Notes under the pieces: model-generated
What the model was told of the DNA's origin: nothing
The model's input: only the letters and a program-made list of their open reading frames with translations
Database searches by the model: none
Program-made: the position numbers and the translations under genes
In this document: positions 57,717 through 63,954 of the stretch, piece after piece
Position numbering within the stretch: the stretch's first letter is position 1
How the letters are laid out: each line of letters begins with the position of its first letter
Source: Chelatococcus sp. HY11
Lineage (GTDB): Bacteria > Pseudomonadota > Alphaproteobacteria > Rhizobiales > Beijerinckiaceae
NCBI RefSeq assembly: GCF_018398335.1
Contig: NZ_JAHBRX010000001.1
Coordinates: 4,332,001 to 4,396,000, forward strand
Length of the DNA stretch: 64,000 nt
Direction: 5' to 3'

Positions 57717-58526
57717 TCAGTATGTCCGCTGCTCGTGACGTTGAGCCGGCCGCGCGGGCAGGACTGCGCCTTGCAGGGCGCGCGCGGCCGGGTGGGTGAA
57801 GTGAAGCGGCCGTATCACCGGGACATCCTCGACGATGCGGCCTCCATCCATGACGACGACACGCTCGCAGAAGCGGTGGACGAGCCGGAGGTCGTGCGTG
57901 ACGAAGAGAAAGGCGGTGCCGCGCGCCGCCTGGATTTCCTTGAACAGATCGATGGTCTGGATCTGCAGCACGAGGTCGAGATTCGAGACCGCCTCGTCGA
58001 GCACGATAAGCTCGGGCTGCGGCGCCAGCGCGCGCGCAATGCAGACACGCTGCAATTGTCCCCCGCTCATCTGCACGGGCAACTTTTCGGCGTCATCCGG
58101 TGCAAGCCCCACTTCGACGAGGAGTTCGCGGACGCGTGCCGCCCGCTGGCGCTCGTCAAGGTCGGTAAGGTGGCGCAGGGGCTCGGCGACGATGCGTTCC
58201 ACGCTGTGGCGCGGGTTCACGGCTTCCAGCGAATCCTGGAACACCACCTGGACAGCGCGGCGGAAGGCGAGAAGGTCCGCGCTGTCGAGCGTACTGAGAG
58301 GTCTGCCCTTGAAGCGGATATCGCCACGGTCCGGCTTCTCCAGGCCCAGGATGAGTCGGCCGAGCGTGCTCTTGCCGCAGCCACTGCGGCCTAGCAGGCC
58401 CAGCGTCTCGCCCGGCTGGATCGTCAGGTCGATGCCATCGAGCACCACTTTCGGCGCGGCGCGGCCGACCAGCGCAAAGCTGCGATAGCTGCGGCCGATA
58501 CCGCGCGCTTCGATGAGGGGCGTCAC
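57717..58526 (-). CDS. nikE: Nickel ABC transporter ATP-binding protein NikE
   Basis: The 269-residue ATPase has Walker [10 protein letters not shown], signature MSGGQLQR, Walker [17 protein letters not shown] and [18 protein letters not shown]. The [13 protein letters not shown] stretch is a distinctive NikE feature. It overlaps nikD by 4 bp. It is the last gene of the nik operon and energises Ni(II) import with NikD. Confidence 0.93.
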
Positions 58527-59305
58527 GCCACTTCCTCGTCGACATAGAGCGCGAGATGCGCGGCGATGAGGCTCTGGGTGACTGGATGCGCCGGCGCGTC
58601 GAAGATCGCGCGCACCGAGCCGCGTTCCACGATCCGGCCGGCGCTCATGACGGCCATGTCGTCGGCGAGCCGTGCCACCACGCCCATGTCGTGGGTGATG
58701 AGAAGGACACCGAGTTGGCGCTCCCGCGCGACACGCTCGATGAGATCGAGCAAACGCGCCTGCACCACGAGATCGATGTCCGTTGTCGGCTCGTCAGCGA
58801 AGAGAAACGGCGCGCGTGACAAGAGCGCGAGTGCGATCATCATGCGCTGGAGCATGCCGCCGCTCATCTCGAACGGATGGAGCGCGAGGATCCGCGCGGG
58901 ATCGTCGAGCCCGACCTCCGCCATGGTGTCACGGATGGCGTCTTCGGAGCCGGCGTCCCGATGGCCGACGGCGGCCAGCGTTTCCACCGCGTGGGCGCGC
59001 ATGGTCTTCACCGGATTGAAGGCGCTGCGCGGGTTCTGCATGATGGTGGCGATGGTGCGTCCGCGGAGTGTCGCGGCCGGCTTTTCCTCTCCATCCAGCA
59101 GGATACGACCGATCCGGCGGCTTACCCCGGCCGGCAGCACGCCCTGCGCGCCGCTTGCCGTCAGGGATTTCCCCGAGCCACTCGGCCCCACGAGTGCGAG
59201 GATACGCCCTGCCTCCAGCGTAAGCGTGAGCCCGTCGACGAGGGCGATCTCCCTGCCATGCCGATGCGTCGTGATGGTGAGGTCTTCGATGGTGAGCGTC
59301 GGCAT
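58523..59305 (-). CDS. nikD: Nickel ABC transporter ATP-binding protein NikD
   Basis: The 260-residue ATPase starts at MPTLTIEDL, overlapping the nikC stop by one base (TGATG). It has Walker [10 protein letters not shown], with Leu in place of the usual Thr/Ser. [16 protein letters not shown] as signature, [15 protein letters not shown] and [17 protein letters not shown] follow. The C-terminus is HPVTQSLI. Confidence 0.93.
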
Positions 59306-60183
59306 CAGTGCTGGTGCTCCGCTGCGAGATGCGGATCCAGCTTGTCGCGAATGGCGTCGCCCGCGAGATTGAATGCCGCGACCGCCACGAACAGCGCAAA
59401 TCCCGGCCAGAACAGCAGCATCGGCTCCGTCCAGACGAACTGACGCGCGTCGTTGATCATGACGCCCCATTCCGCTGTCGGCGCCATCACCCCGAGGCCG
59501 AGAAACGACAGGCCGGAGACGTGGAGCATGATGTGGCCGATATCGAGCGTCGCCAGCACGACGAGCTGCGCGAAAGTCGGCGGCAGCAGATGCTCGATGA
59601 AGATGCGCGTGCGGCTGGCGCCGGCAACACGTGCTGCCAGAATGAAATCGCGCCGTTTGAAGGAGAGAACGAGCCCGCGCACGATACGTGCGTACCACGC
59701 CCAATGCGACAGCACGATCGCGATGATGACATTGACGAGGCCCGTGCCCAGCATGCCGACCATGAACAGGGCCAGCACGATGGTCGGGAACGTCAGGAAC
59801 ACGTCGCAGCAGCGCATGATGACCTGGTCCGCACGGCCGCCCAGCACGGCCGAGGTCCCGCCGATGACGATGCCGAGTGCGATGATGCCCGAAAGCGCGA
59901 TGGCGACCGCGCCCAGCGAGACGCGGGAACCGTAGATCAGGCGGGACAGCATGTCGCGGCCGAGGTGATCCGTGCCCATCCAATGGGCGAGGCTCGGTCC
60001 CTGGAGGCGCCCGGGCAAGTCGACCGCGTTCGGATCATAGGGCGCGATCAGGGGCGCGGCGATGGCGGCCAGGAGAAGAACGGCGACCAGCCCGCAGGCG
60101 ATGCGCGAACTCCAGCGCATGCTGGCGAAGAAGCCGCGCGCCGGTGCGACGGCGGCGCTGTCGTGCTCGACGATCGCGGTCAT
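59305..60183 (-). CDS. nikC: Nickel ABC transporter permease NikC
   Basis: The 292-residue inner-membrane permease has [20 protein letters not shown] and the EAA loop ([27 protein letters not shown]). [19 protein letters not shown] and a [12 protein letters not shown] end follow. It overlaps nikB by 4 bp. Confidence 0.93.
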
Positions 60184-61124
60184 TCCGCGCTCCCGGCGTT
60201 GAGGCGGATCCGCGGATCGGCCCAGGCGTAGAAGATGTCGACGAGGAGGTTACAGAGCACGAAGATCAGCACCATCATGAGCGTGAAGCACTGGATCACG
60301 GGATAGTCGCGGTTGAAGATGGCCGAGACGGCATAGCGGCCGAGGCCCGGCCAGCCGAACACGCTTTCGATGACCAGGGTGCCGCCGATGAGTTCCCCCG
60401 CATGCATGCCCGTTGCGGTGATGATCGGCAGGATGGCATTGCGCAGCACATGGCCGCGCTCGACCTTGCCGTCGCTCAGGCCCCTGAGGCGCGCGTAGTA
60501 CACGTGCCGCTGCCCGGCGACCTCCAGCATGCTGGCCCTTAAGAGCCGCGCGTTGATGGCCAGCGACATGAAGCAGATGGCGATGACCGGCATGATGAGA
60601 TGGGCGGCGGTGCCACGGCCCATCGGCGGCAGCCAGCCGAGCTGCAGCGAGAAGAGCAGCACCAGCAGGAAGCCGAGCCAGAAGTTGGGCATGGAGACGC
60701 CGAGGAAGGCGATGCTGCGTACCACCTGATCCGGCCATTTGTCGCGATGCCGGGCCGCCCACATGCCGAGCGGAACGGAGACGAGGAGCGTGAAGGCGAG
60801 CGCGATGCCCGCGAGTTGCAGCGTCGCGGGCAGGAAATGCAACACCTCCGGCAAGACGGGGCGCTGCAAGGCGTAGGACGTGCCGAAATCGAGCCGCAAC
60901 GCATCCCATAGCCAAAGGAGATATTGGGTCAGCAGCGGCCTGTCCAAGCCAAGCAAGGCGCGCGCTTCGACAAGCGCCTGGTCGGTGGGCGGTATTCGCG
61001 ACAGGCGGAGATAGTCGAGCGCGGGGTCGCTTGGCCCGAGCCTCAGCATCAGGAAGATGACGAGCGAGGCGCCGAGCAGCATCGGGATGAGAAGCAGGAT
61101 GCGCCTGACGATGAAGGAAGCCAT
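60180..61124 (-). CDS. nikB: Nickel ABC transporter permease NikB
   Basis: The 314-residue permease begins [16 protein letters not shown] and carries the EAA-type loop ([30 protein letters not shown]). [11 protein letters not shown] and a WADPRIRL end follow. It lies 9 bp after nikA and is ATGA-coupled to nikC. Confidence 0.93.
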
Positions 61125-61133
61125 CGGTGCGGC

Positions 61134-62720
61134 TCAGCGGTTTGCAGGCTTGATCTTGTCGAACGGGATCTCGCTCGACATGGCCCCGAAGGGGATCTCG
61201 CCCAGCGCCGGTTTGGCGACAGCGATGGCGGTCACGTAGGTCAGCGGCAGATAGACAGCCTGCTCATGGAGGCTGGTCAGGATCTTCGCGTAGAGCGCCC
61301 GACGCTTTTCCTCATCCGTGGAGATGAGGGCCGCGCCGATGTCGGCGTCGATCTCGGCCTTGTCCGGCAGGCCGAGTTGCGCCTGGTAGTCCGCGTGCGA
61401 GGGCAGCCGCATGGAGCTGAGGAAAGCGTGCGGGTCATAGGGCGCGCCCCATGTCCGGTTGAAGATCATGCCGAAGCGCCCATCGCGCTGGCGGGCATAG
61501 ACGCTGCTTTCTTCCTCGCCAACGAGGAAGGCGTCGATCCCGACCTTGCGCAGATCCGCCTGGATCACCTCTGCCATCGACTTCGCCACCGCGTCCGGAC
61601 CGACATAGTTCAGCTCGATCGAGAGCGGTTTGCCGCCCTTCGCGCGAATGGGCTGGCCGGGCGCCAACACCCAGCCGGCCTTGTCGAGAATAGTGGCCGC
61701 CTGCGCCGGATCGTAGGCAAACGGCTTCAGGCCGATGTCGGCATAGGGCACGTTGGGCGCGAACAGGGTGTCGGCGCGCTTCTGGGTGCCGTAGAGCACC
61801 GTCTTGATCATCGTGTCCTTGTCGACGGCATGGTTGATCGCCTGTCGCACGGCAAGTTCGTTGGTCGGCGCCCGGTTGGTGTTGATGGCGAGCGGCCGCG
61901 TCTCCAGCGGTTCGGAGAGGCGGGCGCTGTAGGTCTTGCCTTGCGCGAATCGGGCGAAGGTGTCCGGCGAGATCGGGCCGTCGGCCCCGTAGATCAGGTC
62001 GATCTCACCGGTCTCCAGAGCGATGGCGCGGGTGTTGGGATCAGGAATGACCTTGACGACGACCTGCTCGAAGGCCGGCTTGTCGCCCCAGTAATCGGCG
62101 TTGCGCTTGAAGATGTCATGCTCGCCGAGGCTGATCGCATCGAGCGTCCAGGGACCGGTGCCGATCGGCGCCTTAATGCCGTCCATCGTGCCGCCCTTCT
62201 CCCCGAACTGCGAGGGAGCGATGAAGCGGAATGGCCGGGGGAGGGCGAGTTCCTGCAAGACCGGGTAATAGGCGTCCTTCAGGGTCAGCCGCAGCGTCGC
62301 CTCGTCGATCGCCTCGGCCTTCACGATCTGGTTGGCCAGTTCGAGCCAGGCGTGCCGCTTGCGGTTGGCGAGGATCGCGTCGAAATTGGCGACGGCCGCC
62401 TCGGCGTTGAAGGGTTCGCCGTTAGAGAACTTCACGCCGGGCCGCAGCTTGAAGGTGTAGGTCTTGCCGTCCTCGGAGATCTCCCAGGACTGCGCGAGCC
62501 ACGGAATGACCTTGCCGTCCGCCTGGTAGCGGACGAGCGGCTCATAGACCATCGCCTGCGCGAACATCTGGTTGGGTGAATAGAGATGGGGATTGAGCGG
62601 GCCGACATTCTGCGGCCAGGAGAAATTGAGGGTCTGGGCTTGCGCCGTCTGGGCCGGCGTGACGCAAGCGGCTGCCAGAACAAAACCTGCCCCGCCGAGC
62701 CATCGGAATAACTTGCGCAT
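61134..62720 (-). CDS. nikA: Nickel-binding periplasmic protein NikA
   Basis: The 528-residue family 5 binding protein follows E. coli NikA closely from memory, including WPQNVGPLNPHLYSPNQMFA, RHAWLELANQIV, APIGTGPW and GEEESSVYARQRDGRFGMI. A signal peptide ends near TAQAQ. It captures Ni(II), probably with a chelating metallophore, for NikBCDE. A perfect NikR operator sits 33 bases upstream of its start. Confidence 0.95.
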   Translation of the reverse strand: MRKLFRWLGGAGFVLAAACVTPAQTAQAQTLNFSWPQNVGPLNPHLYSPNQMFAQAMVYEPLVRYQADGKVIPWLAQSWEISEDGKTYTFKLRPGVKFSNGEPFNAEAAVANFDAILANRKRHAWLELANQIVKAEAIDEATLRLTLKDAYYPVLQELALPRPFRFIAPSQFGEKGGTMDGIKAPIGTGPWTLDAISLGEHDIFKRNADYWGDKPAFEQVVVKVIPDPNTRAIALETGEIDLIYGADGPISPDTFARFAQGKTYSARLSEPLETRPLAINTNRAPTNELAVRQAINHAVDKDTMIKTVLYGTQKRADTLFAPNVPYADIGLKPFAYDPAQAATILDKAGWVLAPGQPIRAKGGKPLSIELNYVGPDAVAKSMAEVIQADLRKVGIDAFLVGEEESSVYARQRDGRFGMIFNRTWGAPYDPHAFLSSMRLPSHADYQAQLGLPDKAEIDADIGAALISTDEEKRRALYAKILTSLHEQAVYLPLTYVTAIAVAKPALGEIPFGAMSSEIPFDKIKPANR

Positions 62721-62752
62721 TGCTGAGCCCCGCTTGTCGCTGCCACACTCAA

Positions 62753-62780
62753 GTATGATGATTCTATAGAAACATCATAC
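62753..62780. promoter_or_regulatory. NikR operator
   Basis: GTATGA (62753-62758) and TCATAC (62775-62780) are separated by exactly 16 bases, matching the E. coli NikR consensus GTATGA-N16-TCATAC. It lies between nikR and nikA, just upstream of nikA, so Ni-loaded NikR should repress nikABCDE. Confidence 0.95.
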
Positions 62781-62877
62781 TGCCGGCGCAATCGGGATTT
62801 AGCGATGCTGATGGAAATATTGTTAAAGCACAGTATTTTATGATCTGATGAAAGCTCGGCGTGCCTCGGCGCTCTGA

Positions 62878-63378
62878 TCAATCGTCGTGATGATGATGGC
62901 TATGGACGCCCGGGTGATGGGTATGGGGATGCCCGTGGTCACGATCATGGGCATGGGGTTCATCCGGGCCGGCCGGCATCACATGGAGATGGCCATGGCG
63001 CACGCCACGCTGGCTTGAAACGCTGTCGGCGAAATGCTGCATCGCGTGCACGGTGCCCCTGAGGATCGACACCTCGAGGCAGAGGTCGTGGTCCACATGC
63101 ACATGCATCGTCGCGACGGATAGATCCGAATGGTCGTGGTGGTTTGACGTCAGACGGCTCGCCAAGGCGCGGGTGTGGTGATCATAAACATAGGAAAGGA
63201 CACCGTGGCCACGCGCCTCGCTGGGCGGGAGGGCCTCTTCCAGCGTTTCCTTACGCGAGAACTCGGCGCGGATGACATCGCGCAAGGCCTCGGAGCGGCT
63301 CTGGTATCCCTTGCGTTCGCAGAACGCGTCGATGCCGGCCAGGAGGTCGTCGTCAATCGTCACGGTGATCCGTTGCAT
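62878..63378 (-). CDS. nikR: Nickel-responsive regulator NikR with His-rich C-terminal tail
   Basis: The 166-residue ribbon-helix-helix repressor starts MQRITVTIDDDLL, with SRSEALRDVIRAEF completing the DNA-binding fold. The Ni-binding residues correspond to H81, H92, H94 and C100 (in MHVHVDHDLC). Canonical NikR ends about residue 137. Here a tail from about 138 holds 12 His between 142 and 164, resembling metal-storage tails of other Ni proteins. The gene is upstream of nikA on the same strand. Confidence 0.95.
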   Translation of the reverse strand: MQRITVTIDDDLLAGIDAFCERKGYQSRSEALRDVIRAEFSRKETLEEALPPSEARGHGVLSYVYDHHTRALASRLTSNHHDHSDLSVATMHVHVDHDLCLEVSILRGTVHAMQHFADSVSSQRGVRHGHLHVMPAGPDEPHAHDRDHGHPHTHHPGVHSHHHHDD

Positions 63379-63624
63379 GGCGCGGCATCCTCTCTCTGGC
63401 CGCCATTGCAGGCAACCGAGTTTGATGGATTCGAGGTTTCACCCTGTGATGGCGCTCGGGCGCAGGACCTTACGGACCCGTGACAATAAAACCCGCAAAA
63501 CCATCCCAATGGCTTTCCGCGTCATGTGGTCCGCGCTGCGGACGCTATTGTCAAGACTGAAGGCTTGCGCTCCGCATCGATACGCTCGGCCACGCTGGCG
63601 GCAGGAAGCGTTTGACGCGTAGCT

Positions 63625-63954
63625 TCAGAGCTCCAGCGGATGCGGCAGCACGGCCCATTGCCAGAAAGGCAGGCCATCCACATCGAAAGGCTCACTGAGG
63701 AGAACGAAGCCGGCGGGCGTGTCGCGCCCTGTATCACGCATGGCGTTGGTGAGGGCCTGTCGCAGTCCGTAGCTGAGCGGCAGCGTGTCGATGGTACCCC
63801 GTCCGTCCTGAACCGTCAGACCCGACTCATCGACCGCGATGATCGTCAACCGCCGGCCGATCCAGCGATCGTCCGGGCCCGTGGACGCAACGGCAGGAGG
63901 CTCGAGAGCCAAGCTCAACAGTCGCAGGAGGTTGTGCTTGAGGGTCAGTATCAT
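63625..63954 (-). CDS. Small hypothetical protein
   Basis: The 109-residue protein has a beta-rich pattern (RRLTIIAVDESGLTVQD, then PAGFVLLSEPFDVDGLPFWQWAVLPHPL). No family recognised. It is upstream of nikR on the same strand with a gap of 246 bases that shows no supported gene. The window ends before its own promoter region is fully seen. Confidence 0.45.
   Translation of the reverse strand: MILTLKHNLLRLLSLALEPPAVASTGPDDRWIGRRLTIIAVDESGLTVQDGRGTIDTLPLSYGLRQALTNAMRDTGRDTPAGFVLLSEPFDVDGLPFWQWAVLPHPLEL

Follow-up and report, generated by a model that had tools for sequence, protein, structure and literature searches.

The nikR locus

The window, the whole stretch of 64,000 nucleotides of Chelatococcus sp. 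HY11 DNA that was analyzed, contains a nikR open reading frame (ORF) whose product ends in a histidine-rich tail. Downstream of nikR, on the same strand, lie nikA, nikB, nikC, nikD, and nikE. The features, in window coordinates, are as follows.

62878-63378, minus strand: nikR ORF, 166 amino acids (aa), 26 His in total
62971..63378, minus strand: nikR core, residues 1-136, with an RHH DNA-binding domain and a NikR_C nickel-binding domain
62881..62970, minus strand: His-rich tail, residues 137-166, 30 aa with 12 His, predicted to be disordered
62753..62780, no strand assigned: predicted NikR operator GTATGA-N16-TCATAC between nikR and nikA, 0 mismatches, both half-sites perfect
61134..62720, minus strand: nikA, nickel ABC transporter binding protein (TIGR02294, 736.9 bits; cutoff, 393)
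60180..61124, minus strand: nikB, permease (NF007677, 570.1 bits; cutoff, 433; TIGR02789, 487.4 bits; cutoff, 447)
59305..60183, minus strand: nikC, permease (NF007738, 460 bits; cutoff, 335; TIGR02790, 357.7 bits, just below its cutoff of 358.45)
58523..59305, minus strand: nikD, ATP-binding protein (TIGR02770 is the best family at 301.2 bits, below its cutoff of 318.7; the start is placed, by inference, at the first ATG of the frame)
57717..58526, minus strand: nikE, ATP-binding protein (NF007739, 392.4 bits, and TIGR02769, 370.6 bits, both above cutoff)

The plus strand at 62878-63378, read in the same register, is interrupted by stops. In a Pfam search at E 0.001, RHH_1 (36.1 bits; cutoff, 20.5) and NikR_C (92.5 bits; cutoff, 22) were the sole matches of the protein, and neither a UreE nor an FKBP-type (SlyD) domain was found. 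The protein passed the NCBIfam NikR equivalog models NF002815 (184 bits; cutoff, 83) and NF003381 (126 bits; cutoff, 105), and the span matched by NikR models is residues 1-139. One of several NCBIfam nikR models, TIGR02793, was matched over its entire profile (1-129 of 129) with 170.5 bits against a cutoff of 175.45, and the scores for the subfamily models NF002169 and NF001884 lay under both of their cutoffs; membership in the NikR family is assigned here on the other sequence features, not on TIGR02793.

Among solved structures, E. coli NikR (1q5v; E 6e-43) gives the best match; its 133-aa chain aligns to residues 1-136. In this alignment, H81, H92, H94, and C100 correspond to E. coli H76, H87, H89, and C95, which the passages of PMC7055735 on NikR give as the Ni ligands. 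Across a 22-sequence alignment of NikR proteins (A1), H81 and C100 are invariant, and H92 and H94 are almost so. The preliminary description had likened the core to E. coli NikR with all four Ni ligands, and the domain content, the 1q5v alignment, and the four ligand positions agree with it. Judged by these matches, the protein is a true NikR with an ordinary E. coli-type core. The host genome has one NikR.

The operator ends 32 bp before the nikA start codon. When the whole 6.95-Mb genome was searched with at most one mismatch allowed, the site at 62753-62780 was the only exact copy; one further site carried one mismatch, the same number that a reversed control pattern produced. An exact operator is also present near nikR in three other members of the genus. 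A scan of 62600-63620 gave no match to a sigma-70 promoter or a terminator. Beside nikR, a 109-aa ORF (63625-63954, minus strand) has no Pfam or NCBIfam match at E 0.001 and may not be a gene.

E. coli NikR has the same domain order, the same four Ni ligands, the same operator type, and the same target, nikABCDE. Since core, operator, and operon are all preserved, ordinary Ni-dependent repression of nickel import is the expected behavior: by homology, a tetramer would form, Ni(II) would fill the four-ligand site, and NikR would then bind GTATGA-N16-TCATAC and repress the adjacent importer. The difference lies at the C terminus, where E. coli NikR, at 133 aa, covers residues 1-136, and the 30-residue, 12-His tail of this NikR is extra. 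For the solved NikRs in the phmmer list (the 133-aa E. coli chain, chains of 138 and 148 aa, and shorter fragments), the match likewise ends at about residue 137.

The histidine-rich tail

A tail of about 29 residues with 12 His had been proposed from the sequence; residues 137-166 bear this out, at 30 residues and 12 His. If the frequency of His is taken as 2.3%, the binomial probability of at least 12 His in 30 residues is about 1e-12. In an AlphaFold model of the monomer built on the 22-sequence alignment, the core is folded and pLDDT falls below 50 for residues 140-151, 153-160, and 162-166 (overall pTM, 0.49); the tail is thus predicted to be without structure. The third-position GC content (GC3) is 0.53 in the tail and 0.79 in the core, and CAT accounts for 9 of the 12 His codons. 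This low GC3 and preference for CAT (62881-62970) are perhaps the trace of a recent repeat expansion.

Each of the four genus-labeled genomes in which a NikR was found encodes a tail, with 8 to 12 His. Because these tails are in frame in four genus members, a frameshift or assembly artifact is excluded; a chance origin is rejected on the same grounds, together with the excess of His over control C termini described below. Insertions and deletions are seen in the tail within the genus. The NikRs of the genus, of Kaistia terrae (L068), and of a Hyphomicrobiales metagenome-assembled genome (MAG; L069) are all His rich, with tails of 8, 9, 11, 14, and 16 His that differ in length and sequence. Some tails close on clade-specific motifs, such as the ending HHHHDD common to the four genus members; the 22-sequence alignment contains no motif common to all tails. 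NikA and NikB of the window gave no tblastn match at E 1e-20 in the fetched L068 and L069 loci, the latter a short contig.

Tails among related NikR proteins

The search for the NikR_C domain covered three overlapping samples of genomes: in the host's own family, 49 of 199 genomes carry it (52 matches); at class level, 17 of 385 do (17 matches); and at phylum level, 48 of 398 do (50 matches). From named genomes, scanned with alignment A1, the best 80 of 581 confirmed stretches were kept, and the named set is therefore biased to close relatives. Together, the three samples and these 80 comprised 186 loci and 186 sequences, 178 of them non-redundant after 8 exact copies were dropped. By core score, 159 of the 178 NikRs reached at least 150 and 19 scored lower.

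Among the 159 NikRs, which include those from the best 80 of 581 named stretches, the tail has a median length of 19 aa and a median of 5 His; at least 2 tail His occur in 130 proteins, at least 3 in 112, and at least 5 in 80, and the richest tails reach at least 8 His in 21 proteins, at least 10 in 9, and at least 12 in 3, namely, this protein (12), Kaistia terrae (14), and the Hyphomicrobiales MAG (16), while at the poor end 17/159 have a tail of at most 5 residues and 29/159 have fewer than 2 tail His. The tail is not required for NikR as such, since many relatives are short-tailed or tailless. It is a common and variable feature, with this NikR at the rich end of the range. The nearest relatives outside the genus are two NikRs with still more His, in a six-member set with support of 99.

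The preliminary description had implied that such tails are rare in NikR and had proposed a survey of NikR C termini. The rarity does not hold. With each sequence assigned to the first sample holding it, at least 3 tail His accompany a core score of at least 150 in 37 of 45 own-family proteins, 12 of 13 from the class, 13 of 27 from the phylum, and 50 of 74 from the named set (best 80 of 581), and in the own family 41 of the 45 non-redundant proteins have at least 2. His-rich tails are thus usual in E. coli-type NikR of the family and class samples, and uniqueness of the tail is rejected. A His-rich NikR tail is not described in the passages on NikR of four open-access papers (PMC7055735, PMC2667541, PMC12537917, and PMC11247825), and an earlier report elsewhere is possible; what is novel is how widely the tail occurs, not this particular gene.

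Of the 19 NikRs with lower core scores, 4 have at least 3 tail His, and most of the others close on an ALIPP- or ALLPP-like segment. Divergent NikR_C proteins with such a C terminus and 1 or 2 His are found at L019, L039, L040, L050, L065, and L175 to L180.

Conservation of the tail

As a control, we took the last 21 aa of 881 other ORFs in the named loci; these were chosen by length alone, and some may be false frames. These control ends contain 0.69 His on average, with at least 5 in 9/881, compared with a mean of 4.57 and at least 5 in 86/159 for NikR (named sequences from the best 80 of 581).

The tails are conserved between relatives. Over 49 independent pairs of related NikRs, 436 of 525 tail His (83%) are kept, against 59% in composition shuffles (maximum, 65.5%); for the other tail residues, 852 of 1,565 (54%) are kept, against 32% (maximum, 35.4%). 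Both classes of residue are therefore conserved beyond chance, His more so, and the gap between them is narrower than the raw percentages imply because His is so frequent in these tails. The number of tail His is also similar within pairs, with a mean difference of 1.29 compared with 2.77 under random pairing (lowest value, 1.90).

Within the genus, codon differences counted pairwise from four sequences, and hence not independent, divide into synonymous and amino acid-changing as 17/13 in tail His columns, 20/43 in other tail columns, and 247/66 in the core. These counts and the NikR pairs both indicate that the tail sequence evolves fast. On a poorly resolved tree built from 131 columns, the state "at least 3 tail His" requires 26 parsimony changes, at least 8 of them forced by well-supported branches, which speaks against tight constraint on the tail.

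Urease, operator type, and neighboring genes

The tail could serve as a substitute for the His-rich tail of the urease chaperone UreE, an idea that the family sample does not support. The sample includes 43 own-family genomes whose NikR has an E. coli-type core; at least 3 tail His are found in 23 of 28 in which UreE was detected and in 13 of 15 in which it was not (Fisher P = 1). In any case, the UreE proteins of this family have long tails of their own, with at least 8 His near the end in 28 of the 30 that were read (30 of 51 matches). Two UreE loci, L199 and L207, contain unreadable codons, and the frame of L199 continues past them. Very long UreE tails occur at L203 and L217, with 30 and 49 His, that of L217 containing repeated Cys-Gly-containing units. 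The host genome has two urease alpha matches and three UreE_C matches (loci listed with them are L191, L192, and G000:C1:1836007-1836267), and two of its three UreE proteins, which were read, have tails with 16 and 15 His. No match to the NiFe-hydrogenase large subunit was found in the host genome.

The idea that the tail marks a different operator is likewise unsupported. Sites of the N16 type with at most one mismatch lie near 36 of 116 tailed NikRs and 16 of 50 others (duplicates included), and since they are equally frequent in the two groups, nothing here shows different regulation. Apart from this, 10 of 166 loci have a GTATGA-N15-TCATAC-like site no more than 1.5 kb from nikR, exact in L055, L163, L152, L155, and L016 and with one mismatch in L060, L165, L149, L150, and L153; spacings of 12 to 14 and 17 to 20 gave 0 or 1 at the same limit of one mismatch. 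The N15 site may represent a NikR operator variant shortened by one base.

A link between the tail and nikABCDE was rejected, since the named loci (best 80 of 581) show the reverse: nikA and nikB are both present in the fetched locus of 3/54 tailed and 7/26 other NikRs (Fisher P = 0.011, with relatedness ignored). The fetched loci extend at most 8 kb per side, and some are ended by contig ends. In the same named loci (best 80 of 581), with neighbor clusters named from one member each, NikR neighbors include TonB receptors (a cluster in 15 loci) and a NicO nickel-transport protein (the hub of a 10-locus cluster). In 15 Rhizobium-type loci, again from the best 80 of 581, nikR ends a row of cobalamin biosynthesis genes, and 13 of these 15 NikRs have at least 3 tail His. 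The cobalamin rows contain tetrapyrrole methylases, with CbiC and CbiJ in many (L071, L073, L075 to L079, L081, L083, L095, L096, L103, L105, L115, and L117), and a cobalt link of NikR in Rhizobium-type loci is possible. With neighbors as varied as TonB receptors, NicO, and cobalamin genes, tailed NikRs may govern various types of nickel or cobalt uptake.

Possible functions of the tail

The closest parallels to the tail appear to lie in metal chaperones. UreE has a C-terminal tail of HxH and HH units like that of NikR; the likeness is confined to the tail, as the UreE_N and UreE_C domains are unrelated to NikR and UreE is a chaperone, not a repressor. SlyD, a prolyl isomerase, has an unstructured tail that binds several Ni(II), according to the passages of PMC7055735 on these proteins, and the NikR tail is likewise predicted to be disordered, although Cys and acidic residues also abound in the SlyD tail (PMC7055735). 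The same passages state that UreE binds most of its Ni through its His-rich tail, that several Ni are bound by SlyD tails with Kd values in the micromolar range or tighter, and that Klebsiella aerogenes UreE does not need its tail for delivery to urease. A His tail can therefore be almost without effect. NikR thus seems to resemble the His-tail chaperones in its tail without being one of them.

By analogy with the UreE and SlyD tails, weak binding of Ni(II), Zn(II), and other metals at several places is expected of the NikR tail. We infer that the 30-residue disordered segment would provide several weak sites built from His, for Ni(II) and probably also for Zn, Co, and Cu; if NikR forms a tetramer, as its relatives do, about 48 additional His would surround it, arranged as flexible HxH and HH units. 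It is plausible that the tail stores or buffers metal or tunes sensing, and we favor such a role because conservation in the tail is His biased. In its specific form, to which we give slightly better than even chances, the protein would be a normal Ni-dependent repressor whose disordered, multisite, low-affinity tail buffers nickel, or gathers it in advance, close to the high-affinity site of the sensor, shifting or smoothing the level at which import is shut off. The effect on the set point would be modest, and the tail would not be what makes repression possible at all. Counting against this role are the short-tailed and tailless relatives, the equal frequency of N16-type sites near tailed and other NikRs, the lack of a link to urease, the lower frequency of nearby nikA for tailed NikRs in the named loci (best 80 of 581), the fast evolution of the tail, and the dispensable UreE tail of K. 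aerogenes.

The main rival to buffering for the sensor is that the tail binds metal in vitro and has no specific sensing role, being a tolerated sponge under weak selection for general Ni, Zn, or Cu buffering or detoxification. Fast turnover of the tail, the frequent flips of the "at least 3 tail His" state (26 changes, at least 8 forced), the other His-rich tails in the host genome (UreE), and the dispensable tail of K. aerogenes UreE in the passages of PMC7055735 would all fit such a sponge; His is nevertheless retained beyond what composition explains, and we regard a sponge as unlikely. Regulators are expected to be scarce in the cell, and a scarce protein would be an inefficient sponge, which also counts against this role for NikR. 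It is a good deal less probable still that the tail is a functionless, low-complexity, CAY-rich repeat. Its GC3 (0.53 versus 0.79 in the core), the use of CAT for 9 of 12 His codons, and the insertions and deletions within the genus are what neutral sequence might show, but synonymous changes make up 17 of 30 differences in His columns against 20 of 63 elsewhere in the tail, His retention exceeds that of the shuffles, and tails are spread over the class.

The tail might instead be a metal-gated contact whose target is DNA, a second subunit, or a partner protein, for example a transporter or UreE/UreG, making NikR regulator and chaperone at once. Similar tail length and His content within pairs of relatives would suit a contact surface, as would clade-specific endings such as HHHHDD in four genus members; the lack of a motif common to all tails in the 22-sequence alignment and the occurrence of tails in 13 of 15 genomes in which no UreE was found argue against it, and we consider it about as improbable as a neutral repeat.

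A broader version of the buffering role can be offered more tentatively, and we hold it possible yet doubtful. The usual alphaproteobacterial NikR would be a two-tier sensor, in which a tight four-ligand site is combined with a His tail that loads, holds, and hands over nickel or cobalt, and in which tail length and number of His determine the nickel level that halts import in each species. Cobalt enters this joint reading through the clades in which nikR lies beside cobalamin genes.

If the tail does tune the set point, the behavior of the model proteins would be that of a minority form in the family and class samples, where tailed NikR is common. The range of tails, from 0 to 16 His, would then offer a ready-made series for studying the evolution of a metal-sensor set point.
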